Shown in pieces: positions 2,417-25,427 of a stretch of DNA of 38,400 bases. This DNA is from Pirellulales bacterium (GTDB lineage Bacteria; Planctomycetota; Planctomycetia; Pirellulales; Thermoguttaceae). The notes beneath the pieces are model-generated. The model ran no database searches and was not told the DNA's origin. It was given only the letters and a program-made list of their open reading frames with translations. The DNA is taken from contig JAFGDS010000146.1 of the NCBI GenBank assembly GCA_016931995.1, forward strand, positions 1 to 38,400, given 5' to 3'. The translations under genes and the position numbers were made by a program. The stretch's first letter is position 1, and every line of letters starts with the position of its first letter.

Positions 2417-2603
2417 GTGGAGTCCGCGCCGACGCCTTCGACCAATCCTGGACCCTCGACGCCCTGGGCAACTGGGCGGAGTTCGACGACGACGGGGCGG
2501 CGCAAACCCGCACGGTCAACGAGGCGAACGAGATCGAGACGATTGACTCGTCCAACACGAACGTGGCCTACGACGCGGCGGGCAACATGATACGGGTGCC
2601 GAA
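2417..2603 (+). pseudogene. Rhs core fragment, cut off at the prophage junction
   Basis: Directly after the WD40 stop codon one frame reads a YD-repeat segment of an Rhs core, including LDALGNWAEFDDDG, TVNEANEIETI and AYDAAGNMIRVP. There is no start codon or ribosome site in front. The Rhs similarity ends at about 2600, and the minus-strand phage gene ends at 2620. A complete Rhs protein would continue for well over a hundred residues beyond AGNMIRVP. This is therefore a remnant, either an orphan Rhs piece of the kind found behind main rhs genes or a gene disrupted by the phage. No continuation is visible at the other side of the prophage. Confidence 0.7.
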
Positions 2604-2619
2604 CTTGTCGGCCCGCCCT

Positions 2620-2844
2620 TCACCGCGGCCCGTCGTCTTTCGGCCTTGCTTGATCGCTGACTGTCCGATCGCTCGCCGCCCGGTCGTTCGACAGGGCGAG
2701 CGTCACCTGGTCGGCGTCCATGCGCCAGTCCTTGAAGAGCTTCAGGCCGGGGATCTTGCCTTCGCGCAACATCCGGCGGACGGTCTCCTGGGAACAGCCC
2801 AGGTACTTGGCCATGTCGGGCACGGTCACCATTCGCTTGGCCAT
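2620..2844 (-). CDS. Excisionase/MerR-like helix-turn-helix protein
   Basis: This small 74-residue protein starts at an ATG preceded by GGAGGAGA that overlaps the stop of the upstream head gene. It opens with MVTVPDMAKYLGCSQETVRRMLREGKIPG, the typical winged-helix excisionase/AlpA-like (HTH_17) pattern in which a short helix-turn-helix is followed by a K-x-x-x-W-R strand (LFKDWRMDADQV). Proteins of this type are phage excision factors or small transcription regulators. The C-terminal 25 residues are polar and probably disordered. It is the last gene on the left side of the prophage, where a recombination function would make sense, but no integrase is next to it. Confidence 0.75.
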   Translation of the reverse strand: MAKRMVTVPDMAKYLGCSQETVRRMLREGKIPGLKLFKDWRMDADQVTLALSNDRAASDRTVSDQARPKDDGPR

Positions 2845-2855
2845 CGTCTCCTCCT

Positions 2856-3791
2856 TCATGCTCCCAGGCCCACGAGCGTGCCGAAGCTCACGGCGAAGCC
2901 CGGATCGGTCGAGGGCGGCACGTCCCGGCCGTCCACGTCCACCGTGCGGGGTCGGTAGAGCGGCGCTTCGGCGAACATCGGGATCGTTGCGCAGCGGCAG
3001 GCCCAGCCGTTGGGCGGCGTGCTTTCCAGCCAGAACGGATCGTCCTTGGGCAGCGTCACGCCGTCGTAGCCCGCGTGCTCCGGCCGGACCCGGTCGTCGC
3101 CCACGGTGACGTACCGGTAGCCCCAAAGGATCTCCTGGACCTCGGGGTCCTGTTCCGCGTTCCACTTGCCCGCCGAATAGGCGATGGCCGTCTGCGTGCG
3201 GAAGAGGGCCTCCAGCGTGAAGCTGTTCGAGGGCGTGAGGCCCAGCCGCGCGAACGCTTCGGCCAGACGCCGCTTGCCCTCCCGCACGTGCGCCCCTTCG
3301 GCGGCCAGCTCGGCCACCGTCCGGCCGAGCGTGCGGCCCACCTGCCGGTCGACGCCCGCCAGGACCTTGACGGCCTGATCTCCATACTTCGCAGCGAGCC
3401 GGTCCAGGTCGTCGTCGGTCAGCTCGGCGATCCTCAGAAGCGAGCGGGTCGCCTTCCGGTACGGATCGCCGCGGGCCGGGAGGAACGGGTCGGGCAGCTT
3501 GGCGGCCACGGCCCGGCGCGGGCCCAGGTCCAGCCGGTTGCGTCGCGCGCCCGCCACGTGCCCGGCCACCATCGCGTCGCGCAGTACGGGCAGCAGCTCC
3601 CGCCCGAGGACGTCGCTTACCGCATTGCCCGGGTCGCTGCCTGCTCGCCACGCCCGCCAGGCCGCCTGTTGGGCGCGGAAGCCGATCCGCTGGACCGCGG
3701 CCAGCCCGATCTGTTCGAGCCGGGCTTTGTCCCGGTCCTGCAAGAGAGCCGCGCGGCGCTGGGCGGGGGTGACGGGGGAGCGGGTGGACAT
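2856..3791 (-). CDS. Phage head morphogenesis protein (Mu F-like / SPP1 gp7-like)
   Basis: This is a 311-residue protein read from the ATG at 3791. The first 220 residues are helical and basic. The C-terminal part carries the diagnostic minor head protein signature: VGDDRVRPEHAGYDG, then DPFW, then PPNGWACRC. Family members (Mu gpF, SPP1 gp7) are injected or portal-associated minor head proteins in procapsid assembly. The gene lies behind portal and terminase in the usual order. The ATG has no good Shine-Dalgarno, since the sequence just upstream is a low-complexity repeat that separates it from the portal gene, so expression may rely on the operon or another start. Confidence 0.85.
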   Translation of the reverse strand: MSTRSPVTPAQRRAALLQDRDKARLEQIGLAAVQRIGFRAQQAAWRAWRAGSDPGNAVSDVLGRELLPVLRDAMVAGHVAGARRNRLDLGPRRAVAAKLPDPFLPARGDPYRKATRSLLRIAELTDDDLDRLAAKYGDQAVKVLAGVDRQVGRTLGRTVAELAAEGAHVREGKRRLAEAFARLGLTPSNSFTLEALFRTQTAIAYSAGKWNAEQDPEVQEILWGYRYVTVGDDRVRPEHAGYDGVTLPKDDPFWLESTPPNGWACRCATIPMFAEAPLYRPRTVDVDGRDVPPSTDPGFAVSFGTLVGLGA

Positions 3792-3904: not shown

Positions 3905-5203
3905 CTACCTCCCCATCTCCCGGTAGATCGCCCGGGTGGCGGCGGCTTCGGGGGCGTAGGGGTCCACGCCGGGGCGCACGAGGCCCACAGGACCGTCGCT
4001 GCCCGCGTCGGCCACCTCCTGGCTCTTGGGCACGCCGAGCTTGTCCTTCAGGGCGTCCGTGTCGATCTGCGCGTATTCTTCCAGGAAGCCGCTCGGGTTG
4101 GTCAGGAACGCGCGGTAGACCTCCCGCAGGAATGAGAGCGTCTTGTCCGACAAGGGCGCCGGGGTGAGGCGGACCTTGCCCCGGGCCGCCTCGCCGTAGT
4201 TGTACGTCAGGAGCGGATCCACCAACTGCTCGTTCACCTGCCGGACGATGGACTGGTGCGTCAGCTCGGCATTCACCAGCGCGACGTCCTCGTGGGCCTC
4301 GGCCTCGGCCAGCGTCCCGTGGCTGCCCTCCATGAACGCCCGCTCGGGCAGCAGCAGGCCCCGGGCGATGAGCTTGTCCAGGTACTCCAGCCGGTCGCGG
4401 AAGGTGGGCTGCCGGCCGCCGCTGTCCTGTAACAGCTCGATCTTCCACTCGTTGGATTCCGCCGGGCCGGTCGGAATGTCCTGGCTCTGGTTCGGGATGC
4501 ACACCGAGCCGGACGACTGGAGGGCCGCCAAGATCTCCTGGGCCAGCTCCAGGTTGTCCCGCTCCGCGCCCCGCTCGTCGGGCGACTTGCCCAGCGGGTA
4601 CTTCACCACGTACAGGGCTCCGGCCACCTTGGCGTCGTACCGTCGGGCGCCCGCGTTGCACTCCATCCAGTCGTTCCACGGGTCCCGGACGTTTTCCAAG
4701 AGGGCCTGGCCGTACCAGTTCGTGCCCTCCACGCGGAAGGACAGGACCATGGCCTTGTCCAGTCCCAGCACGACGTCCTTCTGCCGCAGACCCGCCAGCG
4801 AGCCCGAGCGCGGGTCCCCCAACAGCCGCGTGGGGTCTTGCAGGAGCCCTTTGACCTTGGCCAGACGCAGGCCCTCGCGGGTGTAGACCCAGACCTTCTC
4901 AAAAGGCGCGAAGCCGTAGTCCGTGCTGCCAGTGACGGCGTGCTCGACGATCTCGTGGCGCCGGTTGACGACCTGGTCCTTCACGAGCCGGTCCCACGCC
5001 TCCGGGGCGTCGTTGTCGGACTCGACGGCCCACTGGCCGGCCAGGATCGGCGCGGCGGCCAACGCCCTGCCCATGGCCACGGTCGGGTGCTTGCGCATCT
5101 TCCGGTAGGTCGCGTAGCTGGGCGGCAGGGCCGCCACGCCGAAATACGAGAAGGACCGGACCACCTGGGCCCCGGTCCGCTCGCCTGCTACTGGTAGTGC
5201 CAT
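3905..5203 (-). CDS. Phage portal protein (DUF935 / Mu gp29-like)
   Basis: The 432-residue product fits the portal position after the large terminase and before the Mu F-like gene. It shares with the Mu gp29 group a central segment in which the portal sits on a DNA-entry ring: VYTREGLRLAKVKGL, KAMVLSFRVEGTNWYGQALLENVRDPW and a later LDKLIARGLLLPERAFMEGSHGTLAEAEAH segment. The portal forms the dodecameric channel at one vertex of the capsid, through which terminase packages DNA. I placed the start at the ATG 5203, which overlaps the end of the terminase gene by 16 bases and has AAAGGGA upstream. A longer reading runs further back but has no support. Confidence 0.85.
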   Translation of the reverse strand: MALPVAGERTGAQVVRSFSYFGVAALPPSYATYRKMRKHPTVAMGRALAAAPILAGQWAVESDNDAPEAWDRLVKDQVVNRRHEIVEHAVTGSTDYGFAPFEKVWVYTREGLRLAKVKGLLQDPTRLLGDPRSGSLAGLRQKDVVLGLDKAMVLSFRVEGTNWYGQALLENVRDPWNDWMECNAGARRYDAKVAGALYVVKYPLGKSPDERGAERDNLELAQEILAALQSSGSVCIPNQSQDIPTGPAESNEWKIELLQDSGGRQPTFRDRLEYLDKLIARGLLLPERAFMEGSHGTLAEAEAHEDVALVNAELTHQSIVRQVNEQLVDPLLTYNYGEAARGKVRLTPAPLSDKTLSFLREVYRAFLTNPSGFLEEYAQIDTDALKDKLGVPKSQEVADAGSDGPVGLVRPGVDPYAPEAAATRAIYREMGR

Positions 5204-6546
5204 GAAGGAGTCCCTTTCCGGACGATGACGCCCACCTTGCCGTCCAGCGCCAGCCGGATCGGGAAGAGCCGATGCACGGCGTAGCCCAGCGCGTCGGTGA
5301 TGTGGCCGATGTCGCCGCTGTCGTCCAATTCCGTCGTGCCTTGTTTGAAGCCCCGCCGCTCCAGGTCGGCGATCAGCTGGACGCAGTGGGGGGCGACGTA
5401 CATGCGGGTTTCGCCCGCGGCGTTGTGGAACATGGCGTTGCACGCCGCGAGCCGGTCCGCCACGATGGGATTGATCTTGGGGATGCACAGCCGGGGGCGG
5501 AGCCGTTTGATCTTCGGATGGCCGGCGAGGATCGCATAGTCGCTCTTCGAGGCGGACGTCTTGCGGGCCGCGCCCGAGGCGTCTCCGAAGAAGAGGAGAC
5601 CGCCTTGGTGGTCCGCGTAGCGGTCGGCCAGGACGCCTGCGGCCTCTTCGGTGTTCGTGTCCCGCAGCCACAGCTCGTCGATCCACTCCATGCGGTTGTC
5701 GTAGCGATGCCCGACGACCCAGGCCATGGGGTCCACGTTGAAGTCACATCCGACCACCAGCGGCCGGTCGGCGTGGTACGCGCAGGGCCGGACGTTGCGC
5801 TGGCGGTCGAAGGCGTGGAAGACGATCCCTCCGGCCGTCTCCCAGCTTGCCTTGAACTGTTCGCGGTAGTCCTTGGGATCGAGCGCCCGGCGGGCGCGCT
5901 CGAGGGCCGCTTGGGGCACGACGCCTTCGGATTCCCACCAGAAGGACCGGAAGTCGGGGTCTTGCCCGCTCCGGCCGCGCTCGAAGGCCGTGCGGAACTC
6001 GAAGGCCCCGACGCCGTGGCGCTTGGGCACGCCGAAACGGACGCAGATCCCGTTGCGCCAGGTCAAGGCCGGGGCAATCGAGATATCGTAGGTACCCGGC
6101 TTGACGTCCGAGGATTCGTCCACGGCCCCCGCGTCCCACTGCACGCCCTCGATCCGCTTGGCCTCTTGCAGGCCCACGACGTGCAGCGTGGAGCCGAAGA
6201 TCGTCCGGATCGTCAGCTCCGCCGTGCTCACGTTGCGGCCGTGCTTGCCGCCGTCGATCCACCAGGCGGGAATGAGGTCCAAAAAGTCCCGCCAGGCGAT
6301 CCGCTTCGCCTGTCCCAGGGTCGGGGCCCCGTAGAAATACCGGGGATCGGGCCACGGCTTCGGTTCGGGCAATCGGGAGACGAGCCACCGCTTGACGATC
6401 TCCGTCTTGCCCGAGCCCCGCCCCGCGACGATGAGGACGTTGCCGGCCGCGCGGGTGTACAGGCACTCGCACAGGGCCCGCTGCGCCGGGTGGGGCCGGA
6501 ACGGCGTCCAGCGGTCAGTCAGTCTTACAGTGGTCGTCGTTACCAT
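5188..6546 (-). CDS. Large terminase subunit (TerL)
   Basis: This 452-residue packaging motor is complete. The ATPase half has Walker A AGRGSGKT at residues 41-48 and a Walker B-like AVDESSD with Asp143-Glu144. The RNase H-like nuclease half has VVGCDFNVDP (Asp268, Asp272), FFGDASG (Asp322) and GDIGHITDALGYAVHRL (Asp412, Asp418), matching the acidic cluster that cuts concatemeric DNA. In phages it docks on the portal and translocates DNA into the procapsid. It starts inside the end of the preceding small gene (32-base overlap), which supports translational coupling, and it overlaps the portal start. Confidence 0.92.
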   Translation of the reverse strand: MVTTTTVRLTDRWTPFRPHPAQRALCECLYTRAAGNVLIVAGRGSGKTEIVKRWLVSRLPEPKPWPDPRYFYGAPTLGQAKRIAWRDFLDLIPAWWIDGGKHGRNVSTAELTIRTIFGSTLHVVGLQEAKRIEGVQWDAGAVDESSDVKPGTYDISIAPALTWRNGICVRFGVPKRHGVGAFEFRTAFERGRSGQDPDFRSFWWESEGVVPQAALERARRALDPKDYREQFKASWETAGGIVFHAFDRQRNVRPCAYHADRPLVVGCDFNVDPMAWVVGHRYDNRMEWIDELWLRDTNTEEAAGVLADRYADHQGGLLFFGDASGAARKTSASKSDYAILAGHPKIKRLRPRLCIPKINPIVADRLAACNAMFHNAAGETRMYVAPHCVQLIADLERRGFKQGTTELDDSGDIGHITDALGYAVHRLFPIRLALDGKVGVIVRKGTPSWHYQ

Positions 6547-6904
6547 CGGGCGCCATCGTTGCTTTCATGGCCCGCAGCTCGGCCATGATCCGCATCGCCT
6601 TTTCGTGGGCGTTGTCCACCTCCGCCGATTCGCGCCGCGCCTCGCGGTGGTCCCGGCGGAACTCCAGGTTGATCCGGTCCAGGCTGGCGATCAGCCGCGC
6701 CAGGGCCACGTAGTTGCGCGAGCTGGTGGTCTCCAGGGCCAGCTTGATCGCCTTGTTCGCAATGGCCTGGCGCAACCGCGCCGGCACGCCCCATCGCTCG
6801 AGGAGCTGCACGTCCGAGCGAACGTTCGCGTGGCTTTCAAGCAGGCCCTCCCCCTCTCCCCCTTCAGGTTTTGGCGCGTCGTCCTGGGCGCGTTCGTCTG
6901 CCAT
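6515..6904 (-). CDS. Putative small terminase subunit
   Basis: The 129-residue protein has an acidic, Gly/Glu-rich N-terminus (residues 1-22), a central helical part with LLERWGVPARLRQAIANKAIKLALE, then LARLIASLDRINLEFRRDHREARRESAEVD, likely a coiled coil, and an acidic tail. The function is assigned mainly by position: it directly precedes and overlaps terL as a terS gene does. A recognisable DNA-binding helix-turn-helix is not obvious, so this could be another packaging-associated protein. It is the first gene of the leftward packaging operon and faces the divergent promoter at 6994. Confidence 0.5.
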   Translation of the reverse strand: MADERAQDDAPKPEGGEGEGLLESHANVRSDVQLLERWGVPARLRQAIANKAIKLALETTSSRNYVALARLIASLDRINLEFRRDHREARRESAEVDNAHEKAMRIMAELRAMKATMAPDGNDDHCKTD

Positions 6905-7504: not shown

Positions 7505-7999
7505 GTGAAACCCTACAACGGATTCTCTCCGCAGCAGCGGGCCCGCACCTGCCCCTGGCTCCGCCGGGAGTACGAGTCGGGCCGCCGGGCCCGGCCGACC
7601 GTTTGCGAGGCGTGCGGTCAGACCGAGGGCGCGATCGAGGCCCACGCCGAGGACTACTCGGAGCCCTTTGGCGACCATATCTGCGAGTTCAGTTTGTGCT
7701 ACCGGTGCCACATGATTCTCCATTGCCGCTTCGGCTGCCCCGACGCCTTCCACCACTACGTCCAAACGCTCGCCAGCGGCCGCCGGTTCGTCGCCATGCC
7801 CGGGCGATCGTGGCCCACGTTCGCCCGGGAGCACCTCCAGGGTCGCACCGCGCCGACGGAGCCCGCCGACGCGCCGCCGCGGGGCTTTGACCACATTCTC
7901 CAGCGCGGCCGCGAGGTCCTGGCCCGCCGTCAGGCGGAATCCCCTTGCGCCGCGTCCTCGGAACCGGACGACCGCGTCCCCGAGGGGTATCTCTTCTAG
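7505..7999 (+). CDS. HNH-like zinc-binding endonuclease-type protein
   Basis: The GTG start has AAAGGAGG seven bases upstream. The 164-residue product has CEACG (about 37-41), then IEAHAEDYSEP, then CYRCHMILHCR (about 65-75). This C-x2-C ... H ... C-x2-C-H-x3-H arrangement is that of HNH/zinc-finger nucleases in phages. Many phages carry an HNH protein next to terminase that helps to cut packaged DNA; here it stands beside terS/terL but on the opposite strand and from its own promoter, so it may be a selfish or regulatory moron rather than part of the packaging machine. It meets the minus-strand ParB-like gene tail to tail with a 4-base overlap. Confidence 0.6.
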   Translation: MKPYNGFSPQQRARTCPWLRREYESGRRARPTVCEACGQTEGAIEAHAEDYSEPFGDHICEFSLCYRCHMILHCRFGCPDAFHHYVQTLASGRRFVAMPGRSWPTFAREHLQGRTAPTEPADAPPRGFDHILQRGREVLARRQAESPCAASSEPDDRVPEGYLF

Positions 8000-8529
8000 G
8001 CCCTCCTGGTTCGACTGCTCTCGGCGGGATACCACGCCCGCGAGTACGGGGCGTTCGCCAGGTTCCGCGCCTTGAACACGTCGTTCTCCAACAGCAACTG
8101 CACCTCCTCGCGGGTCGCGCCGATCCCCGCGGCGATCTCCTCGATCTCGCAACCATGGTCCTCGACCAACTGCCGGACCAGCTCCGCCATGCGGACCGCC
8201 ACGTGCGTCCCCTTCGCGCGGTTGATCCGCACGGTGAGCATCTTGGCCTCCGCCTCGTCCAGGTCCAGGATCGAACAGGGGACCTTGCCGCCGTACCGAT
8301 CCCGCAGTGCGCGGCTTTCCAGAGCCAGCCGGACCCGGTGGTAGCCGTCGATGATCGTCAAGGCCGTCGAGACCAGGATCGGCTGGACCCAGCCGGACCG
8401 CAGGAGGGACGTTTCCAGGAGCCGGAGTTCCGCGCGCAGGACGACATTGGGATTCCAGGCGTTGGCGCTAAGTGTATCGGCCTCCAGCCAGCAGACGTTG
8501 CACACCGGGTCGTCGATCATGGGTCGCAT
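7996..8529 (-). CDS. ParB/sulfiredoxin-fold protein (second ParB-like of the cassette)
   Basis: The 177-residue protein has the ParB N-terminal (Srx) fold pattern: WVQPILVSTALTIIDGYHRVRLALE, in which GYHR at about 62-65 is the nucleotide-binding GxxR motif of ParB/Srx proteins. The following ATREEVQLLLENDVFKARNL segment looks like a small helix-turn-helix. Family knowledge: stand-alone ParB/Srx domains act as CTPases, nucleases or partners of nucleic-acid-modifying enzymes in mobile elements. Two or three cysteines near the N-terminus (CNVC) could bind metal. It starts seven bases after the methyltransferase gene, the last gene of a four-gene cassette. Confidence 0.75.
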   Translation of the reverse strand: MRPMIDDPVCNVCWLEADTLSANAWNPNVVLRAELRLLETSLLRSGWVQPILVSTALTIIDGYHRVRLALESRALRDRYGGKVPCSILDLDEAEAKMLTVRINRAKGTHVAVRMAELVRQLVEDHGCEIEEIAAGIGATREEVQLLLENDVFKARNLANAPYSRAWYPAESSRTRRA

Positions 8530-8536
8530 CGGGGCC

Positions 8537-9100
8537 TCACTCCTCCAGGGTCAGGTAGGCGACCGGACCGCGCCGGATGCGCTGGGTGAACACGCCGCGG
8601 CACAACGCCACCTCGGCATCGGTGTGGGGGATCGGGTGCCGGGACCGCGTTGAAAACACCCGCCCTTGCAGAAACAGCTCCCGAATCCCGGCGTCGGCCA
8701 CGCGGCGGCAGAACACCGCCGCCCAATCCATTCGGGCCGCGAAGATCTCGGAAAAACACCGCCGCGCCACCAAAACCGTCACCTGGCGCTCGGCAATCAG
8801 TCGCGTCAGGGTTTCCAGAGTCGCGGGCTCGACGCTCATCGGCACGATCGGCACGGTGACGCCGCGCGCCCGGGCCGCGGCAATGGCCTCCACGTCGCGT
8901 TCCACGCCCACGGCCTGGAAGCCCAGCGACGCGAGGCGCTCCCCCAGCAGGCCCGTGGAGCAACACAGGTCCAGCACGGCCTGGCCACGGGCCAGCTCCA
9001 GGACCGCCTCGACCATCGGCCGATGGATCTCCGGCCAGCGGCGTCCTTCCCGAAACGCCCGCACGTGCGCAAGTGAGTTGTAGCGGAGGCTCTGGCTCAT
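8537..9100 (-). CDS. SAM-dependent methyltransferase, class I
   Basis: From the ATG at 9100, which overlaps the upstream stop as ATGA, the product is 187 residues. Motif I is VLDLCCSTG (about 42-50), followed by GFQAVGVERD with the acidic residue (Asp69) that binds the ribose of SAM. The remainder (VLVARRCFSEIFAARMDW, then PIPHTDAEVALCRGVF) shows no DPPY/NPPY motif of DNA adenine or cytosine-N4 methylases and no PC motif of C5 methylases. The substrate is therefore unknown; it may act on a modified base, a small molecule or a protein. The context between a PAPS-reductase-like and a ParB-like gene points to nucleic acid modification (inference). Confidence 0.75.
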   Translation of the reverse strand: MSQSLRYNSLAHVRAFREGRRWPEIHRPMVEAVLELARGQAVLDLCCSTGLLGERLASLGFQAVGVERDVEAIAAARARGVTVPIVPMSVEPATLETLTRLIAERQVTVLVARRCFSEIFAARMDWAAVFCRRVADAGIRELFLQGRVFSTRSRHPIPHTDAEVALCRGVFTQRIRRGPVAYLTLEE

Positions 9101-10161
9101 CGGGCGCCTCCCGGCCCGCGCGTGGGCAGCAGCGTCCGCTTCACGCTGCCGGACACCAGGGCGTCCAGCAGTCCGACGGGCGTGTAGGAGCCCGGCGAGC
9201 GCTGGGCCAGTTTGAGGGTCTCCCGGTACCGTTTCAGGGCCGCGCGTCGCTGGCCGGGGTCCGTGATCCGCTCGGCGATGTACCGACGGCACCCTTCCCA
9301 TCCATCGGCGTACCGCGCCTTCACGCCGCGGCCGTCAAAATCCCGCCAGTAGCGGTCCTGGAGGGCCATGTCGGGGAACACGGCCAGGAGCCGGTCGTAG
9401 AACTCGGGGTCCAACGCCCGCAGCCGGTCGATCCGCTTGGCCGCCTCGGCGTGCAGCGGGGTGGACACCCGGAGCCCGACCCCCGCCAGGTGTTGCGCGT
9501 TGTACAGGGGACACCATGCGACGCCGTGCTCGCCGAGCCATTTGAAGACGTCGTTCTCGGTCCAGTCGTAAATGGGTTTGGCGGTCTTGATCCGCGCGGT
9601 CGTCGAGCCGACGGGCGTCGTGATGTAGTTCTCGCTGAGTTTGTTGACCACCGACCGGTACCGCACCAGGCTCTCGTCGGCCCGGATGCCCGTGATGAAG
9701 GCCACCGAGCCGGGCCACCCCGCCGCGCACGCCTCGTCGGCCGTGTACTGGTCCAACACGCGATAGGCGCCCTCCGGCTGCCGGATGGCCCAGGGCGGCA
9801 TCTCCCGAATCCATGCCCGATCCCGGTCCCACTGGACGTAGGTGGTCCGCCGCCCCAGGACGAACTGATCGCCCCGCAGCGGCAGACAGAACCACCGCAT
9901 ACGGACCCACGGCTCGAGGCGGTAGCCGTTGACGAAGTCCAGCACGGACGAGGGGATCAGCTCCTCGTCGCGAAAGATCACGCGGACGTGGTCCAGGCCC
10001 CGCTGGCGGGCGACCTGCCACGTCAAATGGAGGCACGTCAACGAATCCTTGCCGCCGCTGAAGCAGACCGCGACCGTGTCGAACAGGTCGAAGACGTGGT
10101 GGATGCGCTTCAATGCCTCCGCGACCACGTCCGTGTCGATGTATCGCTTGTACCGCGCCAT
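9097..10161 (-). CDS. PAPS-reductase-like ATP-pyrophosphatase (IbrA/DndC-like)
   Basis: The 354-residue protein starts at the ATG 10161, overlapping the previous stop. The PP-loop SGGKDS lies at residues 35-40 and is followed by HLTWQVARQRGL, FRDEE, the adenylate-binding-like GIRADESLVRYRS (158-170) and IYDWTENDVFKWL (197-209). These are hallmarks of the PAPS reductase / DUF3440 group, which includes IbrA and the phosphorothioation protein DndC. Such enzymes activate a substrate with ATP, and the Dnd version helps to place sulfur in the DNA backbone. Here no cysteine desulfurase or Dnd partner is present, so the chemistry is open. The tight overlap with both neighbours shows one translational unit with the ParB and methyltransferase genes. 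Confidence 0.85.
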   Translation of the reverse strand: MARYKRYIDTDVVAEALKRIHHVFDLFDTVAVCFSGGKDSLTCLHLTWQVARQRGLDHVRVIFRDEELIPSSVLDFVNGYRLEPWVRMRWFCLPLRGDQFVLGRRTTYVQWDRDRAWIREMPPWAIRQPEGAYRVLDQYTADEACAAGWPGSVAFITGIRADESLVRYRSVVNKLSENYITTPVGSTTARIKTAKPIYDWTENDVFKWLGEHGVAWCPLYNAQHLAGVGLRVSTPLHAEAAKRIDRLRALDPEFYDRLLAVFPDMALQDRYWRDFDGRGVKARYADGWEGCRRYIAERITDPGQRRAALKRYRETLKLAQRSPGSYTPVGLLDALVSGSVKRTLLPTRGPGGAR

Positions 10162-10787
10162 CAGTCCCCGCCCAGGCTGTCGATGAATCGCACAAGTCGC
10201 TCGCCGTGGGTCTGCGCGTCCGGGTAGCGCTCCTTCAGGGATCGCAGGAACCGATACCACGTCTGCTGTTGCCGGTCGTCATCGAAGACCAGGGTGAAGC
10301 TGATAACCGGCTCGCCCAGTCCCGACCCTTCCTCCTCCGCCGCTTGGGCCGGATCCTCCGCGGCGGGCTCGAACAGGTCGATCCCATGCGTGTCCGCCAG
10401 GCCCGCCAGCATCTCCTCGACGGCCTCGCTCTGGGAGCCGATGTCGTGGAGCAACTGCCCCAGGGCGTCTTTGTCGGCGTCCGCCATGGCCGCCAGCGGA
10501 TCGAGCACGGCCAGGAGTTTGGCCGCCTCGTCGGCGTCCACGTCCAAGATCAACACGGGCACTTCCTGGTCCGGCGTGGTCTCGGCCCGCAGGTGGCCGT
10601 CGATCAGCTCGAGCCCGCCGTCGGGCAACTCGCGGGCCAGGAGGGCATCCGCGTAGCCGACTTCCGCCAACACGCCCCGCAGGGCGTCCCGCTGCCGGTC
10701 GGGATGCGTCCGCCAGTTTCGCGGGTTGGGCCGCAACTGGGACGCCTTCACCCGACGGAGTTCCTTGATCCGGTCGCGAATCTGCAT
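10161..10787 (-). CDS. ParB-like nuclease-domain protein (first gene of the cassette)
   Basis: The 208-residue protein begins with KASQLRPNPRNWRTHPDRQRDALRGVL, the classic ParB N-terminal opening, followed by GLELIDGHLRAE where GHLR (about 64-67) is the ParB/Srx GxxR motif. After VPVLILDVDADEAAKLLAVLDPLA the C-terminal half is acidic, with EEMLAGLADTHGIDLF and a stretch of Glu/Ala. ParB-like proteins of this type are often encoded next to PAPS-reductase-like enzymes or DNA methylases in phages (IbrB next to IbrA is one case). Its stop codon overlaps the start of the PAPS-reductase-like gene, so the two are translationally coupled. Confidence 0.8.
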   Translation of the reverse strand: MQIRDRIKELRRVKASQLRPNPRNWRTHPDRQRDALRGVLAEVGYADALLARELPDGGLELIDGHLRAETTPDQEVPVLILDVDADEAAKLLAVLDPLAAMADADKDALGQLLHDIGSQSEAVEEMLAGLADTHGIDLFEPAAEDPAQAAEEEGSGLGEPVISFTLVFDDDRQQQTWYRFLRSLKERYPDAQTHGERLVRFIDSLGGD

Positions 10788-10804: not shown

Positions 10805-11614
10805 TCACTGAGTCACCACCACCGGGGCCCGCGCGCCCGTGACGCCGGAGGCCAGCGCGGCGTCGAGCCGACGGCCGCCGGCCATGATCTCCTTGAGCAC
10901 CCGGTCCACGTGCTCCCGGTGCCAGGCCAATCGGTGGATGGCCCGGCCCGTGACCTCGTCAAAATCCTCGATCCCGCGGCTTTCGTAGAGCCACACACCC
11001 GCCAGACGCGCGGCCAGTTGGCGGATGGTCGTCGGCACCGTGGCGATGGGCACCAGATACGGGCCGCCCCGCAACCGGTCGTCGATCTCGGCCGTGGCCG
11101 CCGCAATCGCCCGGGCGATCCGCCCTCCAATGTGGGCGCCGTTGCCGTGGTTCTCCACGTCCGCCCACTTGCGGACGTTGTGCGCCCCAAAGACGTTCTC
11201 CACGTCCGCCCGGACGCAGTAGCCGTCCGACGCGGCCGATGGGTGCGTCGTGACGACCAGCGTCGCCAGCACGGCGCCCGTGCCCGTCGTGAGCATGTAG
11301 ACGGCCTTGTAGGACCGGCCGGGCAGCGTGAAGGGGGACACGTTGAAGAAGTGCCGGAAGCTGTAGCCCACGTCGTCGGCCGTCCATCCGCCGCCCGTCT
11401 GGAGCGTATCGAAGATCGCCTCGGACACGGCCAGCGGCACGTCCGTGAAGCCGTCCAGCGGCGTCTCGACGGATTCGTCCGGCTCGCCCAGCAGGACCAC
11501 GGAGTATACCATCGCCGAGACGTCGGCCTGCTGGTAGGCGTCCGCGTTCTCGTCCAGGAGCCGCGCCATGAGGGCCGCGGGCTTGGCGGCCTCGATCGTC
11601 ACGTATCCGCTCAT
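10805..11614 (-). CDS. DUF1320-like head completion protein (Mu gp36-like) with an extra N-terminal domain
   Basis: The C-terminal 130 residues match the DUF1320 pattern: CVRADVENVFG, then IARAIAAATAEIDDRLRGGPYLVPI, then VPTTIRQLAARLAGVWLYESRG. Mu gp36 and relatives are connector or head-completion proteins. The first 130 residues are an added, beta-rich domain containing VYSVVLLGEPDESVETPLDG and YKAVYMLTTGTGAVLATLVVTTHPSA, and may be a virion decoration or binding domain. The gene precedes the ParB cassette by 17 bases. It is 269 residues long, about twice a plain DUF1320 protein. Confidence 0.68.
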   Translation of the reverse strand: MSGYVTIEAAKPAALMARLLDENADAYQQADVSAMVYSVVLLGEPDESVETPLDGFTDVPLAVSEAIFDTLQTGGGWTADDVGYSFRHFFNVSPFTLPGRSYKAVYMLTTGTGAVLATLVVTTHPSAASDGYCVRADVENVFGAHNVRKWADVENHGNGAHIGGRIARAIAAATAEIDDRLRGGPYLVPIATVPTTIRQLAARLAGVWLYESRGIEDFDEVTGRAIHRLAWHREHVDRVLKEIMAGGRRLDAALASGVTGARAPVVVTQ

Positions 11615-12715: not shown

Positions 12716-13429
12716 TCAACTCACCAGGACCGGTTGGAGGGTCCGCCCGACGTCCCGACGCCGCAAGGGCGACGCGATGGGCGGATGCCCCGCCAGTCCG
12801 CCGCTGGCATCCGTCACGGTCAAACCGGCAAGCGTCTCGCGGGAGTCCGTCTTCATCGGCATCCGCCAGACGAGGCCGAGCGGGAAGAACGACGACGCCG
12901 CGCCCGCCGCCAGCGCGGCCCGCTCGTCGGCCGACAGGGCCCGGTTCCACTTGGCCCATTCCGCCAGGCGGCCGCCGAAGTAGCTGTTCGGGTCGAACTC
13001 CGACACCGCGCCGAAGAGCCAGGGCACGGACGGATTGATGTCATCCATCTTGCTCAGGACGCCCTGCCCGGCGGCCACGCCATCGACGTACTGCGTGAAC
13101 GTGTAGCTGCTGCGGACGAGGCACAGGTGGTGCCAATCCGTCGTGGTAATCACCGCCGTCGGCGACATGACCTCGAGCTGTTCGGCGGTATCCTTGAGGC
13201 GGAATTTGATCTTGCCGGCCTCGCCCGGGTAAGACGCCTCGCGGAACCACCAGTTCAGCGACGGCAGGTAGTTGAAGTGGTTCCACGACAGGACGAACTG
13301 ACTGGCCGCGCCGGCCAGCGAGTCCGGCTTCATCCACCCGGCCAGCGTCCAGTCCGCGTCGGGCAACGTCAAGGCGGCGTTGTCCGCGATCGAGAGGTAC
13401 TGGTCGATTTCGTTGAACGACAGGGCCAC
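12716..13429 (-). CDS. LamG/concanavalin-like lectin domain protein, probable virion surface or tail fibre protein
   Basis: The 237-residue sequence is nearly all one LamG (Laminin_G_3/concanavalin-like) domain: LPDADWTLAGWMKPDSLAG, then TDWHHLCLVRSSYTFTQYVDGV, then YFGGRLAEWAKWNRALSADERAALAAG. These jelly-roll domains bind carbohydrates and often form receptor-binding parts of phage tail fibres. No signal peptide is present, which fits assembly into a virion. The C-terminal 40 residues are outside the domain and Arg-rich at the end. Confidence 0.75.
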   Translation of the reverse strand: MALSFNEIDQYLSIADNAALTLPDADWTLAGWMKPDSLAGAASQFVLSWNHFNYLPSLNWWFREASYPGEAGKIKFRLKDTAEQLEVMSPTAVITTTDWHHLCLVRSSYTFTQYVDGVAAGQGVLSKMDDINPSVPWLFGAVSEFDPNSYFGGRLAEWAKWNRALSADERAALAAGAASSFFPLGLVWRMPMKTDSRETLAGLTVTDASGGLAGHPPIASPLRRRDVGRTLQPVLVS

Positions 13430-13430
13430 G

Positions 13431-13784
13431 TCAGACTCCTCCCGTCGGCGCGTCGCCGCGCGGCGCGCGCGCGGCGGCTTCCGGCGACGGGCGTGCGGGG
13501 CCGACCCGTTGCTCCAACCGGTCGATCGAGCGGGCCAGCCGCCGGGCGCTCCGGGCGTTGGCCCGCAGGGCCTGGTTGTTCGCCTCGACCACTTCGTGGT
13601 ACTTGCCCAACAGGAGCGGGCCCACCTTGACCGACAGCGCCACGGCGATCACGATCACCGCGGTGGTGGCCGTGAAGTTGGCCGCCCCCTCCCAGCCCGA
13701 GGGCACATCGGTCGCCAGCACGGTCCCCGCCGCGGCGAACGTCGCCGTCCCGAATCCCAACACCCAAGTCGTGATCGTGTTCAT
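13431..13784 (-). CDS. Small membrane protein with coiled-coil C-terminus, holin candidate
   Basis: I chose the ATG at 13784 because the longer frame runs through the repeat region and into the papain-like gene. The 117 residues hold two hydrophobic helices, about 5-27 (TWVLGFGTATFAAAGTVLA) and about 38-58 (ATTAVIVIAVALSVKVGPLLL), separated by a short loop with GWEGAANFT. A coiled coil follows, VVEANNQALRANARSARRLARSIDRLEQRV, and a basic, Pro/Ala-rich tail. Two-helix proteins of this size near a cell-wall enzyme can be holins. This is positional inference only. Confidence 0.5.
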   Translation of the reverse strand: MNTITTWVLGFGTATFAAAGTVLATDVPSGWEGAANFTATTAVIVIAVALSVKVGPLLLGKYHEVVEANNQALRANARSARRLARSIDRLEQRVGPARPSPEAAARAPRGDAPTGGV

Positions 13785-14050
13785 GGTGAGCACCGAGTGA
13801 AGACGGGGGTGCGGACGCGCCAACGCCGAAGGGGCCGACGCGGCGGATCGAAAGCGGAACGCGGAAAGCGGAAAGCCGGCCGCGACGCCGAACCTCCGCT
13901 TTCCGCTTTCCGCTCCCCGCTCTCCCGAGTTCCGAACCCCGACTCCCGACTCCCGACTCCCGAAATGTCCGGCAGCACATCGGGCAAAATGTCCGGCAGC
14001 GGCCCAAGAGGGGCCGCCGCCAGACACCACACCAGGAGGACTCGCGTCAT
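13781..14050 (-). CDS. Possible short exported protein eroded by repeats
   Basis: A start codon four bases after the papain-like gene opens with MTRVLLVWCLAAAPLG, which resembles a signal peptide, followed by the repeat PDILPDVLPDI. The rest of the frame is translated from low-complexity DNA repeats (SGVGSRESGFGTRESGER) and ends inside the start of the next gene. I see no conserved domain. Either the gene was interrupted by repeat expansion or the frame is not real. Confidence 0.3.
   Translation of the reverse strand: MTRVLLVWCLAAAPLGPLPDILPDVLPDISGVGSRESGFGTRESGERKAESGGSASRPAFRFPRSAFDPPRRPLRRWRVRTPVFTRCSP
13841..13965. repeat. Inverted and tandem low-complexity repeat in the late operon
   Basis: A 15-bp arm made of GCGGAAAGCGGAAAG (13861-13875) has a perfect inverted copy at 13899-13913, and a GACTCCC word is repeated three times at 13941-13961. 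The structure can fold into a strong hairpin. It lies between the papain-like and the membrane protein genes and resembles the host-type intergenic repeats seen elsewhere in this window. Confidence 0.75.
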
Positions 14051-14053
14051 GGT

Positions 14054-14761
14054 TCACGCCTTGATGTCGGGCAGTTTCAGGGCATCCGCCGGGCGGATGA
14101 AGAACTCCCGCACGAGGAAGGCCCCGAACACGCCCAGCCCGGCTTCGATCTGCGACTCGGTCACCGGGTACCAGCCGTTGGTCCCGTATTCGCGGCCCCA
14201 CGTCCCGCGGACGTGGAACACGGCCTTCGAGCCGTCCCGCCTCGTGTACGCGGGAAACTCCGCGTGGCCGCCGCGGCCGATGAACCGGCCGTAGATCCCG
14301 CGGCAACCCTTCTGGACGCCGCTGACGAGCCGTTCGATCGAATCGCCGCAGTCCCACACCTCGTGCGCAAAGAGCCGCTCCGTCGATCCCTTGATCGGGA
14401 AACCCTTTTCGAGAAGGTACGCCAACGCCGTGTCTAGCGCGACGCCACCCCGACCGCCCGAGAGATCCATCCAGGCTCGGTGCCAGTCGAGCGACACCTT
14501 CTCGCGACCGCAGAGGGAGAGGTGAAACTCCCCGGCGTTCCCGGCGGAAGCGAGACAGCAGGCCGGATCGCCGTCCTGGTCGATGTCCTCGTACTCGGCC
14601 CATTCCAGCCCTTCCTGATCGATCCACTGCGCGCGCGGAACGATCGGGCAGGCGGGGATCTCTGGAGACCAGATCGGGAACCGCTCGCCCACCTTGGTCT
14701 CGCGGGGCAGACAGCCGGTCGTGTAGAGCCGACCGGCTTGTTCAACCTGAAACTCGTTCAC
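14054..14761 (-). CDS. Papain-like cysteine peptidase-type protein
   Basis: The GTG start at 14761 overlaps the upstream stop and has AAAGGAGG seven bases before it, so the long upstream extension is not used. The 235 residues include the three landmarks of a C1-type fold in order: DPACCLASAGN (about 73-83, candidate nucleophile cysteine), GRGGHAEFPAY (about 165-175, candidate histidine) and GTWGREYGTNGWYPVTESQI (about 186-205), which resembles the NSWG-x-x-WG-x-NGY motif of papain. There is no signal peptide. The protein may cleave a virion protein or cross the envelope with holin help as a lysis or peptide-cleaving enzyme; both are inference. A catalytic Asn before WGREYG is not obvious. 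Confidence 0.55.
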   Translation of the reverse strand: MNEFQVEQAGRLYTTGCLPRETKVGERFPIWSPEIPACPIVPRAQWIDQEGLEWAEYEDIDQDGDPACCLASAGNAGEFHLSLCGREKVSLDWHRAWMDLSGGRGGVALDTALAYLLEKGFPIKGSTERLFAHEVWDCGDSIERLVSGVQKGCRGIYGRFIGRGGHAEFPAYTRRDGSKAVFHVRGTWGREYGTNGWYPVTESQIEAGLGVFGAFLVREFFIRPADALKLPDIKA

Positions 14762-17031: not shown

Positions 17032-17901
17032 TCAAAACAGCGTCTTGTCTTTCGCCTCGCAACTCCGGCTGTTGACGAGCAAGACTTCCGGGGCTTCCGC
17101 ATTGCTCTGCTTGCGGCCGGTAAAAGGACGCCACCGCCATCGCGTCTCCGGGTACAACTCCCGAACGAGCGGATGGTCGTAGAACCGACAGACGATCCGG
17201 ACTTTCTGGAAGGCTCCGAGCGCTTTGGCAAGCCCGCGGTGATCCTCCTCGGTGAACTTGTGCTTGTACGGGAGCCCGGTCTCGGGGAAAGGCGGGTCGC
17301 AGTAGAGGCCGTGGCCGTCGAGGTCCTGCACCTTGGCAAGGAACTCGAACACGTCAATGGTCGCGAAGTTGCACCGCCGCAGGATTCGATGCCACGCGCG
17401 AAGCGACCCGACGGCCGATCGGTACCGCGTGTTGGAGTCGCCCCCGTTTGCGTTCCAGCGGATCGGCAAGGCGCCCTTGAACTCGTCAACGGTACCCGCC
17501 TTGCCGCTACGGCCCATCCACGACACGATGAAGTAGTTCAAGGCCCACCGCTCGGACAGCTCGGCGTCGGCCGTCTCGAACGTCCAACCACCGCGCTCCA
17601 TTTCCTCGCAATGCGTCTGAGCGAGCGCAAGAACGTCGGGATGAAACGGCATCCGCGACAGGTGCGCAGACAGCCGGCGTCGGCACTTCGTCGTCGCCAC
17701 AACCGCCGCCAAGTTCATCACGTGTCGATGCACGTCTCCTACCACGATCGTGGGCGCGTCAATGTAGGCCAGTTCCGGCATTCCCCCGGCGAACGGCACG
17801 CCCACCCAGCGACATCCGGCGAGCAACTTGCCGACTTCTGGGGCGAGCATCCTGGCACAGCCGAACCACGGGGCGAGGGCTTTGATTGCGGGTTGGGTCA
17901 T
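17032..17901 (-). CDS. D12-class adenine-N6 DNA methyltransferase (Dam-like)
   Basis: The 289-residue protein carries SAM motif I as FAGGMPE (37-43) and the catalytic motif IV as DPPF (202-205) in LYCDPPFPETG. The order, motif I before motif IV with an intervening target recognition region, is that of the Dam/D12 class. There is no obvious restriction partner, so it probably protects phage DNA from host restriction or regulates transcription. It is one of two predicted adenine methylases within 1.8 kb. The stop codon is 29 bases ahead of the next gene. Confidence 0.85.
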   Translation of the reverse strand: MTQPAIKALAPWFGCARMLAPEVGKLLAGCRWVGVPFAGGMPELAYIDAPTIVVGDVHRHVMNLAAVVATTKCRRRLSAHLSRMPFHPDVLALAQTHCEEMERGGWTFETADAELSERWALNYFIVSWMGRSGKAGTVDEFKGALPIRWNANGGDSNTRYRSAVGSLRAWHRILRRCNFATIDVFEFLAKVQDLDGHGLYCDPPFPETGLPYKHKFTEEDHRGLAKALGAFQKVRIVCRFYDHPLVRELYPETRWRWRPFTGRKQSNAEAPEVLLVNSRSCEAKDKTLF

Positions 17902-17905
17902 GTCG

Positions 17906-18250
17906 CTAGACCTCCATCCTCGACACTGCCGGGCTCGCCAGGTACCTCCGCACGTCCTCGATAAACCGTCGCATCAGTTCACTCGGCGGGTCTGCAAGCC
18001 GTTGGAGATATCTCAGTTCCACGTCTCCAACGCGATTGGTCGCGTTGGCCCCGAAGGGAATGGCCATGTCCTCGAACATTCTTGCCTCTCGATCCGTCAT
18101 GGGGATCAGCTTCGGCTGTTCCTGGAGAACTGGAACGCCGTTGTGCAACTCGTTCACCCGCTCGACGAAGGCGCCCTTGTCGTCGGCCGCGGCGTAGCAC
18201 TCCTCCGCCCAACGGCGCGATTCGATCCGAGTTATCAGGCTGTTGTTCAC
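17906..18250 (-). CDS. Hypothetical phage protein between two methylase genes
   Basis: A GTG start at 18250 overlaps the MT-A70 stop codon as GTGA, so translation is coupled. The 114-residue product is charged and helical, with RRWAEECYAAADDKGAFVERVNELHNG, a middle EARMFEDMAIPFG, and ELRYLQRLADPPSELMRRFIEDVRRYLA. I recognise no domain. It ends four bases before the Dam-like gene, so all three are one unit. Confidence 0.55.
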   Translation of the reverse strand: MNNSLITRIESRRWAEECYAAADDKGAFVERVNELHNGVPVLQEQPKLIPMTDREARMFEDMAIPFGANATNRVGDVELRYLQRLADPPSELMRRFIEDVRRYLASPAVSRMEV

Positions 18251-18825
18251 CCCACCACTCCCGCCGCGCTAACCTCCTCGCCCCAGGCCGTCCACCCAGC
18301 CCGCTCGCCCCGTGCGAACAGTTCCAGGTACGGCCCGGGGCTACATGCTTCGATCAGGTCATAGATTTCCTCGGGCTTGCGGGAGTGCTCCCGCTTGCGC
18401 GTGGCAATCACGTTCACCTGCGTGCGTCCAGGCTTGAGCGTTCGCAGGTTGCCGCGAACGCCGAACAGGAGCAACTCCGTCACGTTGCGGAAGTAGAACC
18501 CGCAGCCGCGGCCGTCGGGGCCGCCGTCCTTGCGGACCTTGTGCCAGACGATGTTGGTCTTGTAGACGAAGCCCCACGCCTCCATGACCGCCAAGCCCCA
18601 GGGCAGGATGGCGTTTGGGACCCAGAGGTACAGGTGGCTCGGCCAATCCGCGTGGGCCGCAACGGGCATGGCTCGAATTTCTCCCACCGTCATCGTCCCG
18701 TACCGCCGCAACCGCCGATGCTCGGGGGCGACCTTGCCCGTGCGGTTGGTGAATCGCCACGGTGGATCGGCCAGGATCGTCCCGAACGTGCCGCGGAGGT
18801 TGGGTATACCATTCAGCCGTCGCAT
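18247..18825 (-). CDS. MT-A70-family adenine methyltransferase
   Basis: The start ATG 18825 has AAAGGAACTCC upstream; longer readings lie in the upstream Cys-rich gene. The 192-residue protein opens with the diagnostic FGTILADPPWRF (DPPW at 20-23). It continues with HLYLWVPNAILPWGLAVMEAWGFVYKTNIVWHKV, TELLLFGVRGN and HSRKPEEIYDLIEACSPGPYLELFARGERAGW, which are hallmark MT-A70 segments. Family members methylate adenine N6 in RNA or DNA; phage versions modify DNA and resist restriction. The target here is unknown. Confidence 0.9.
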   Translation of the reverse strand: MRRLNGIPNLRGTFGTILADPPWRFTNRTGKVAPEHRRLRRYGTMTVGEIRAMPVAAHADWPSHLYLWVPNAILPWGLAVMEAWGFVYKTNIVWHKVRKDGGPDGRGCGFYFRNVTELLLFGVRGNLRTLKPGRTQVNVIATRKREHSRKPEEIYDLIEACSPGPYLELFARGERAGWTAWGEEVSAAGVVG

Positions 18826-19286
18826 GGAGTTCCTTTCGTGTCCGTCGTGACGGGTTCTTTCGCCTGCGATTCGTTGACCACTGCGGCGAGCCTCTCCAAC
18901 CGGCGGCGGTCGGCCGCACGAACGGGCCGGAGTCGTCCGTTGCACGCATCGCAGACCACTCCCGTCGGCGTCAACGTCCTCGGGCGCCGGCAGTCCGGGC
19001 AGAGCAGGATCTCCAGGTCGCGGGCCAGCCGTGCCGGATCGGGCTTGGGCCGGGCGGGCTTTCGGGGCGGGGCAAGGGTGGCTTCGTGCCCGGGGTGTTC
19101 TTCGTTCCATCGGTCGAGCCACTGCTGGGCAAAGACGGCGGTCCTCTCGGCCGCCTCGACCAGTCCGGCGCCGTGGTTCGCGCCACCACAGATGCAATGG
19201 CAGTGCGTCCCGATCGCGTTGTAACACCGGGCGTCGCAACGTCCCACGCAACCCTTCGAGTTGTAGACCGCGATCAGCGTCGCCAT
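18813..19286 (-). CDS. Cys-rich zinc-binding protein
   Basis: The 157-residue protein has an N-terminal cluster CVGRCDARCYNAIGTHCHCICGG (six cysteines plus a histidine within about 22 residues) and a C-terminal zinc ribbon CPDCRRPRTLTPTGVVCDAC. A helical part with RTAVFAQQWLDRWNEEH and a basic PRKPARPKPDP linker lies between. Phages carry related small proteins with CVGRCDARCYNA-like openings in early operons. A nucleic-acid-binding role is likely. Its end overlaps the MT-A70 start by 13 bases. Confidence 0.6.
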   Translation of the reverse strand: MATLIAVYNSKGCVGRCDARCYNAIGTHCHCICGGANHGAGLVEAAERTAVFAQQWLDRWNEEHPGHEATLAPPRKPARPKPDPARLARDLEILLCPDCRRPRTLTPTGVVCDACNGRLRPVRAADRRRLERLAAVVNESQAKEPVTTDTKGTPCDG

Positions 19287-19377
19287 GGGTCAATCTCCTG
19301 CAGGATGATCCTCAATGGGAGCCGACCCGCCCGGGCCCGGGAAGGGAAGGCGACGGGCGAGCCGGACTCGCGTTGCG

Positions 19378-25333: not shown

Positions 25334-25353
25334 CGCGCATCCTCCTTTCCGAG

Positions 25354-25427
25354 TGCCAGGGGCGGGACTTGAACCCGCAACCTCCAGATCATGAATCTGG
25401 CGAGCTACGCTTTTGCTCCACCCTGGT
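25354..25427 (-). tRNA. tRNA with CAT anticodon (elongator Met- or Ile2-type), atypical
   Basis: A full cloverleaf reads on the minus strand from 25427. It has a 7-bp acceptor (CCAGGG with CCCTGG, plus an A-C pair at the end), a 4-bp D stem GAGC/GCTC, an anticodon stem CCAGA/TCTGG with loop TTCATGA (anticodon CAT), a 5-base variable loop and a T arm GCGGG/CCCGC with loop TTCAAGT. Position 1-72 is A-C, the D loop has C where G19 should pair with C56, position 37 is G where A is usual for A-starting codons, and CCA is not encoded. It is not an initiator type (no GGG/CCC anticodon stem). It sits between two genes of the early operon. Confidence 0.75.

Follow-up and report, generated by a model that had tools for sequence, protein, structure and literature searches.

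A PAPS-reductase-like enzyme, two ParB-fold proteins and an exchangeable transferase: a candidate phage module for nucleic-acid modification

On contig JAFGDS010000146.1 of a Pirellulales bacterium (assembly GCA_016931995.1), analysed here in its entirety of 38,400 nt and called the window below, four genes on the minus strand form a compact cassette which encodes, in order of transcription (window 10787-7996), a ParB-fold protein (ParB2), a PAPS-reductase-like protein of the long IbrA type (PAPSR), a class I S-adenosylmethionine (SAM) methyltransferase (MT), and a second ParB-fold protein, of the IbrB type (ParB1). Comparison with related loci revealed that ParB2, the long IbrA-type PP-loop enzyme and ParB1 are a conserved core, accompanied by either the MT or a GNAT acyltransferase, never by both, and usually by an HNH-like gene. 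The two transferases frequently replace one another, and this exchangeability of the putative capping gene, shown by the comparison of loci and invisible in a single sequence, is the most telling feature of the module. We put at about even the chance that the region is a phage module for the modification of nucleic acid, most likely DNA, with a mark that is capped by a methyl or acyl group.

A conserved core and an exchangeable transferase

Long loci were defined by a score of at least 400 bits against the PAPSR profile, and 94 were counted, near-copies included (83 viral contigs, six genome contigs, four named phages and the window), duplicates of loci counted elsewhere (L005, L007, L008, L011 and L012) having been dropped beforehand. 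Loci with a short IbrA made up a separate bin of 53, or 52 without L099, a truncated long locus, and hits below 90 bits (L150, L152-L165 and L167-L172) were placed in neither group. ParB1 lies beside PAPSR in 94/94 long loci, ParB2 lies upstream in 92 and an MT downstream in 36, and the recurrence of the ParB genes led us to reject a chance neighbourhood and bore out the view, put forward in a sequence-only reading of the window, that this is a conserved phage cassette. The same reading had regarded two ParB-fold proteins with a methyltransferase between them as an unfamiliar layout; an MT between PAPSR and ParB1 is indeed found in only six of the 36 MT loci, but it proved to be one arrangement of a widespread module. 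Among 19 further contigs outside the 94 (these include the near-copies L229 and L230, and Rhizobium phage L338C as L263), ParB1 was found in 19, ParB2 in 19 at an E-value of 1e-3 (17 at a 60-bit limit) and the HNH-like gene in 16. In a set of 68 loci with PAPSR differing by more than 10%, which served as the control for near-copies, PAPSR distances were correlated with those of ParB1 (Spearman 0.65; the highest of 300 permutations gave 0.22), and also with those of MT (0.47) and ParB2 (0.41).

Searches of 50,697 phage records by tblastn produced 214 matches to PAPSR, of which 78 covered 80% or more of the query, 217 to ParB1, and 18 to MT (11 in Arthrobacter phages, six in Bacillus phages and one in a Mycobacterium phage). 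That the four-gene set recurs in other phages, a check that the sequence-only reading had proposed, was confirmed by carriers such as Arthrobacter phage Salgado, in which the cassette is genes 5-8 and is followed by the genes for the small (TerS) and large (TerL) terminase subunits, Bacillus phage 031MP004, where it lies within genes 79-84 along with two small unassigned genes, and Mycobacterium abscessus prophi79-1, where it occupies genes 92-98 with HNH (100) and terminase (101) genes next. In Mycobacterium phage Phlyer, the cassette is genes 1, 4 and 5, then TerL, with no MT. A host gene was rejected as an explanation, as the two matches among 297 genomes of the class were the genome of the window itself and a marginal one (E 1e-3 over 46 residues). 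The literature searched, outside of which lie subscription papers and preprints, yielded no account of the module, and none is given in the available portions of PMC12839542, PMC4490671, PMC12707154, PMC5874904, PMC8092301, PMC11318856, PMC10853773, PMC12783734, PMC10434257 and PMC11437467.

Clustering of the genes around the cassettes, for which 79 loci were used and 15 near-copies skipped, brought up two unexpected families, the HNH-like zinc protein and the GNAT acyltransferase, the latter represented by the protein of L026 (Acetyltransf_7, 39.9 bits; cut-off 27). By profile, MT is present in 36 of the 94 long loci and GNAT in 40, and no locus has both, where about 15 joint occurrences would be expected; with both searches relaxed to E 1, no hidden second transferase appeared in these loci. 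The same mutual exclusion was seen among 65 loci with PAPSR more than 10% different (MT 23, GNAT 29, both 0) and among the 19 further contigs (MT 3, GNAT 11, both 0). Whichever transferase is present either follows ParB1 or sits between it and PAPSR. On the PAPSR tree of the 65 loci, from which L015, L024, L068 and L072 were left out (their contigs end at or soon after ParB1), the states MT, GNAT and neither require 28 changes, compared with 28.8 for shuffled labels, and the well-supported branches demand a minimum of 11 changes for MT and 14 for GNAT.

The exchange can also be seen between two Arthrobacter phages. The only match to GNAT in the phage records was gene 8 of Arthrobacter phage Kovu, whose genes 5-10 encode ParB, PAPSR, ParB, an acetyltransferase, TerS and TerL, an order shared by Salgado with a methyltransferase as gene 8. 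The products of the surrounding genes are alike in the two phages (76% identity for ParB2, 87% for PAPSR, 85% for ParB1, 67% for TerS and 83% for TerL), and a comparison of the two gene 8 products gave no similarity match. The 12 Arthrobacter records with PAPSR consist of the 11 with MT, plus Kovu. A Mom-like acyltransferase was considered and set aside, five GNATs having been scanned with no match to phrog_1384, which is listed as a Mom-like PHROG in the accessible part of one paper; this is no proof of absence. In 12 of the 52 short loci, a GNAT-profile gene also separates IbrA from IbrB, and two that were scanned fell just under the Pfam GNAT cut-offs; owing to these genes, the capping idea may extend to ordinary IbrAB pairs. 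The 12 loci (L100, L102, L110, L112, L115, L116, L121, L124, L125, L128, L130 and L131) are mostly proteobacterial by their titles.

The HNH-like gene, overlooked in the sequence-only reading, was found by profile search in 72 of the 94 long loci, including the window, and is a fifth member of the recurrent set. It lies no more than 200 bases from the transferase gene in 62 of 68 pairs, and its tree tracks transferase type (eight changes, compared with 15.3 for shuffled labels, and 0/500 shuffles as low); the ParB1 tree hardly does so (15 changes versus 17.2). Because the HNH-like tree follows the transferase label, the two genes seem to move as one cartridge. The HNH-like protein had four tblastn matches in the phage records (prophi79-1, Rhizobium phage L338C twice, and P11VFA), of which prophi79-1 and L338C have the cassette core and P11VFA has a ParB2-like match nearby. 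Given four records versus 214 for PAPSR, the gene was rejected as a general packaging HNH, within the limited reach of a tblastn search with one short protein.

Predicted functions of the cassette proteins

PAPSR matches PF01507 (PAPS_reduct, 49.3 bits; cut-off 22.5) and phrog_2302 (PAPS reductase, 8.1e-99), and the SGGKDS motif of its ATP loop (PP-loop), present in the window as had been read, is invariant across 59 aligned long PAPSR. No cysteine is invariant among the 59 (the best column has 52), and the proteins of L047 and L050, which are probably one lineage, have no cysteines at all; among 52 short IbrA, the best cysteine column has 46. In contrast, CysH controls of the APS-reductase kind, taken from genomes of the same class, keep five invariant cysteines in 25/25 sequences, and the cysteines of the FRWC and CWxC motifs are common to both of the two DndC that were compared. 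The suggestion that the enzyme places sulfur, as DndC-type relatives do, was therefore not supported. In addition, PAPSR scored 20.7 bits against the NCBIfam model of DndC, far below the cut-off of 290.4, and a PADLOC scan of six window proteins gave weak matches of PAPSR to BrxP (24.6 bits) and DndC (21.8). Phylogenetically, the long PAPSR form a clade of their own (support 100/100), separate from short IbrA, as do the CysH (100/99), and long and short IbrA fall together, apart from CysH, CysD and DndC (98/93), with a long-branch warning for CysH and CysD; short IbrA needs two changes on this tree, with which a single origin remains compatible. On the evidence of the cysteines, the tree and the family cut-offs, we rejected a role in ordinary sulfate assimilation or as an auxiliary metabolic gene. 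With the ATP-loop residues kept, PAPSR outside the CysH, CysD and DndC groups, and the gene order recurring, the outcomes that the sequence-only reading had named as fatal to its modification cassette were not obtained.

The predicted structure of PAPSR (mean predicted local distance difference test score, pLDDT, 91.9) had as its top structural alignment the PAPS domain of FAD synthase (Z 19.3, root-mean-square deviation 2.9, 171 residues), followed by CysD (16.8), FMN adenylyltransferase (16.1) and PAPS/APS reductases (15.9-14.6). FAD synthase and CysD carry out adenylyl transfer without a catalytic cysteine. They act on other substrates, the likeness to PAPSR amounts to 18-20% identity over the aligned part, and the adenylyltransferase fold is shared with the reductases. 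Based on the lack of an invariant cysteine and the alignment with FAD synthase, we infer that PAPSR may adenylylate its target, and activation by ATP is supported by the modelled fold and the invariant residues. Free sulfide or the persulfide of a partner may be the alternative nucleophile for the enzyme.

Neither ParB protein reaches Pfam ParB_N (ParB1 13 bits, cut-off 26.3; ParB2 no match), and their naming, as two ParB-like proteins, is backed by PHROGs and by profile matches to solved ParB/Noc structures: ParB1 matches ParB/Noc/Spo0J structures, and a profile of ParB2 relatives finds Noc/Spo0J structures (best 1.6e-13). The second part of ParB1 is helix-turn-helix (HTH)-like, by a weak match to phrog_686 (E 0.003, residues 99-144). 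Since a DG(F/Y)HR motif is kept in ParB1 of 94/94 loci (DGFHR in the window) and its ParB2 equivalent is variable, ParB1 would be the likelier of the two to use a nucleotide. Both match the N-terminal part of the phrog_498 DNA methyltransferases, and the L082 gene at 13041-14351 encodes a fusion of a ParB2-like domain and an N6_N4 DNA methylase. These matches and this fusion, together with the terminase context described below and the HNH-like gene, point to DNA as the probable target. Extra ParB-domain genes, like that of L082, were also seen near the cassettes of L065 (3451-4878) and L002 (226-1422).

The MT has the class I SAM motif DLCCSTGLLG and, as the sequence-only reading had it, neither of the DNA-methylase motifs (N/D/S)PP(Y/F/W) and PCQ in the window protein, in which respect it differs from the DNA methyltransferases with which it has the class I fold in common. 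It lies just under Pfam cut-offs (24.4 vs 27), and its model (pLDDT 93.3) has a generic class I SAM fold that aligns alike with small-molecule, peptide and RNA methyltransferases. Twelve residues are invariant among 28 members (P23, I25, H26, D44, G50, L51, R113, R114, E118, G146, R147 and E163), and the family has A-R-R-x-x-x-E near residues 112-118. Assignment of a substrate by fold was tried and given up, the structural matches being generic and the PADLOC scores low, at 29.8 bits for mads_2 and 13.9 for a type II methyltransferase.

Packaging genes and other neighbours

The position near packaging genes, which had been read from the window, proved to be common. The downstream scan excluded eight near-copies, as well as 25 loci whose flank was shorter than 3 kb, leaving 61, eight of them without a long open reading frame (ORF), and 88 ORFs, less one antisense ORF of the window, gave 87 that start within about 4.5 kb of the cassette. 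Terminase_6N was matched by 26 of these, Terminase_3 by nine, and GpA_ATPase and TerL_ATPase by three each; as these family matches may overlap, at least 26 of the 87 are terminases, and the leading PHROGs of the downstream ORFs are also terminases. Upstream (53 loci and 38 ORFs, less one overlapping ORF of the window), a terminase was matched by 0/37 long ORFs, and helicase, primase and toprim families lead. The several terminase families downstream suggest that the cassette has kept its place beside different packaging engines. Downstream of short IbrA pairs, in a sample mostly of bacterial genomes, the terminase count was 1/55 among the best 25 of 86 families listed. In or near the cassette of viral contig L036 are genes for a SAM synthetase (8-1087), an unassigned 190-aa protein (2550-3122), a MazG pyrophosphohydrolase (4762-5148) and a 2-oxoglutarate-Fe(II) oxygenase (5145-5786), extra enzymes that would fit a demanding modification pathway.

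In the window (Table 1), the four genes overlap or nearly touch, as had been claimed: a single base is common to the ParB2 stop and the PAPSR start, the overlap between PAPSR and MT is 4 nt, and ParB1 follows MT after a gap of 7 nt. The PAPSR start is likely the tabulated ATG, rather than the GTG of the longest ORF. The HNH-like gene is convergent with ParB1, the 3' ends overlapping by 4 nt, and by coordinates the two ends overlap in the same way in L006, the closest relative. The PAPSR gene of L006 is split at 1614-1811 by a frameshift or a sequencing error. TerL is about 1.5 kb downstream of the cassette, and scans against Pfam and PHROGs, which gave no convincing match for the candidate TerS, identified Mu-type genes around the cassette, with a gp36-like gene upstream and portal and F-like genes downstream.

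Table 1. Cassette genes and selected neighbours in the window
Feature	Position	Strand	Size, matches and remarks
TerL, terminase large subunit	5188..6546	-	phrog_2, 1.7e-25
Possible terminase small subunit	6515..6904	-	by position only, just before TerL
HNH-like zinc protein	7505..7999	+	phrog_2340 endonuclease, 3.1e-05
ParB1, IbrB-type ParB-fold protein	7996..8529	-	177 aa; phrog_2159, 5.6e-63
MT, class I SAM methyltransferase	8537..9100	-	187 aa; phrog_11826, 3.8e-27; swappable slot
PAPSR, long IbrA-type PP-loop ATP enzyme	9097..10161	-	354 aa; PF01507, phrog_2302
ParB2, ParB-fold protein	10161..10787	-	208 aa; phrog_723, 2.7e-20; first cassette gene
Mu gp36-like head-tail adaptor	10805..11614	-	PF07030, 6.5e-12; ends 17 nt before the cassette

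Elsewhere in the window, two minus-strand genes (17032-17901 and 18247-19293) match the DNA methyltransferase PHROGs phrog_56 (3.9e-25) and phrog_359 (3.2e-55), and the element thus has further DNA methylase genes. A gene at the left end of the contig (41-1237, plus strand) appears by eye to encode an RHS-repeat-like protein and may be host sequence or a phage gene. A tRNA-Met lies at 25353-25427 (minus strand), and the contig has no match to the PF00589 integrase family. No second copy of the cassette was found in the genome bin from which the window comes. This bin also has no match to APS reductase (TIGR02055), found in the other 58 of the 59 genomes of the class that were searched, or to CysD (TIGR02039); it seems that either these genes are absent or their contigs are missing from the bin.

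A possible pathway and the alternatives to it

A more specific reading, which we offer tentatively and regard as possible rather than probable, is that the IbrA-type "PAPS reductases" are ATP-dependent adenylylating enzymes, not sulfur enzymes, that together with two ParBs equip phage DNA with a reactive group, the mark being varied by a swapped cartridge (MT plus HNH, or acetyltransferase plus HNH) beside the terminase. In the pathway that we propose for the modification module as a whole, the ParB proteins would hold the phage DNA, ParB1 via its HTH-like part, and PAPSR would use ATP to adenylylate, i.e., activate, a group on it. AMP would then be displaced by a nucleophile, for which an amine is likelier than a persulfide bound to the enzyme, and this would leave a new reactive group, which the enzyme in the slot would cap with a methyl or an acyl group. 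Related phages would in this manner arrive at different final marks on one scaffold, and the differing marks may help them to escape host restriction, or other defences that sense marks, before or during DNA packaging, while the HNH-like protein may recognise or cleave DNA depending on the mark.

Several points weigh against a capped DNA mark of this kind. No modified base was seen, and the substrate, product and chemistry are putative. A fold match is no proof of activity, and while FAD synthase alone stands clear of the other structural alignments, CysD, FMN adenylyltransferase and the reductases are practically tied; by Foldseek E-value the top match is in fact a CysH (6vpu, 4.5e-07), with FAD synthase second (5.9e-07). 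For the MT, the fold is of the general class I type, and the protein is without a DNA-methylase motif. Neither transferase is present in 18 of the 94 loci, of which three have contigs that end inside ParB1 and one has a contig that ends within 0.5 kb of it, and the cap is thus not obligatory. The adjacency of the HNH-like and transferase genes means that linkage alone could explain their common history, and the ParB2 tree also tracks transferase type in part (12 changes versus about 17 under shuffling, with 5-6 of 500 shuffles as low). The short-IbrA control for the terminase context consists mostly of bacterial genomes and is hence unmatched, a 9-kb stretch of Rhizobium phage L338C has the core and the HNH gene with no terminase, MT or GNAT, and a Bacillus phage stretch is without a terminase.

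Among known systems, there is a resemblance to Dnd/Ssp phosphorothioation; in the available text of PMC10853773, a PAPSR-type enzyme is joined by DndB, a ParB-superfamily partner acting on DNA. PAPSR might accordingly place sulfur in phage DNA, as a phosphorothioate or a thiobase, for the MT to methylate. In the accessible portions of the relevant papers, DndC and SspD are PAPSR-type enzymes of phosphorothioation (PMC12707154, PMC10853773), a prophage PAPS reductase is noted as DndC-like (PMC8092301), and BrxP of type-4 BREX, which has a cysteine-rich region of its own in place of the DndC dyad, is still filed under phosphorothioation (PMC12839542). The weak PADLOC matches to BrxP and DndC can also be counted in favour of sulfur. 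The cysteines kept by the DndC and CysH controls are not kept by the long PAPSR, however, nor is the DndC cut-off approached, and we consider a sulfur modification unlikely. Unlikely, too, is a defence akin to restriction-modification, in which nuclease and modification genes occur together: the core and slot enzyme would put the mark on the DNA of the phage, leaving the HNH-like protein to destroy unmarked DNA of the host or of rivals. The frequency of the predicted HNH-like gene, its closeness to the transferase gene, its tree, and its rarity in phage records, so unlike a general packaging HNH, all accord with such a defence. Yet the gene is absent from 22 of the 94 loci (some by contig end), four loci have it with no transferase, the window gene is on the other strand, and no PADLOC model matched it.

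The name IbrAB brings with it the idea that the module regulates genes of the phage or prophage, the pair being reportedly co-activators of prophage gene expression. Phage annotators call relatives of the cassette proteins IbrA and IbrB, and the weakly matched HTH-like part of ParB1 would suit a regulator. The naming is by similarity, however, and an invariant ATP loop with interchangeable methyl- and acyltransferases speaks for an enzyme pathway, making a regulator improbable in our estimation. The cassette has the intact PP-loop (59 members) and adjacent ParB-like gene (94/94 loci) of the IbrA/IbrB type. Short IbrA, although of the same PP-loop superfamily and with a ParB1 partner nearby in 51 of the 53 loci of its bin, is accompanied by ParB2 in four (one of them the truncated long locus), by MT in none, and by no HNH-like gene. 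More improbable still than a regulator is a module whose product or target is a small AMP-conjugate or a protein, e.g., terminase or a capsid protein, rather than DNA. The best structural alignments of PAPSR are with enzymes of small molecules (FMN, sulfate), and those of the MT do not discriminate among small-molecule, peptide and RNA substrates; two ParB-fold partners, one of them HTH-like, and the proximity to terminase genes fit DNA better. A phage precedent for two-step DNA hypermodification is the CmoX/CmoY carboxymethylcytosine pathway, which has a ParB-domain gene in many contigs and a different first enzyme, with no PAPSR-like protein in the available part of that account (PMC12783734).

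An interchangeable last step on a conserved core suggests that the module is a modification pathway and that marks are under selection to change. Salgado and Kovu, both of them cultured phages of Arthrobacter, differ at exactly gene 8 and are a natural test pair. If the more specific reading, with its swapped cartridge, is true, the cassettes would represent a class of phage DNA hypermodification that has gone unrecognised, in which the marks can be exchanged and the nucleases match them. Confirmation of the module would give phage biology a new type of DNA modification, the orphan pair IbrA/IbrB a function, and DNA labelling a new source of enzymes.

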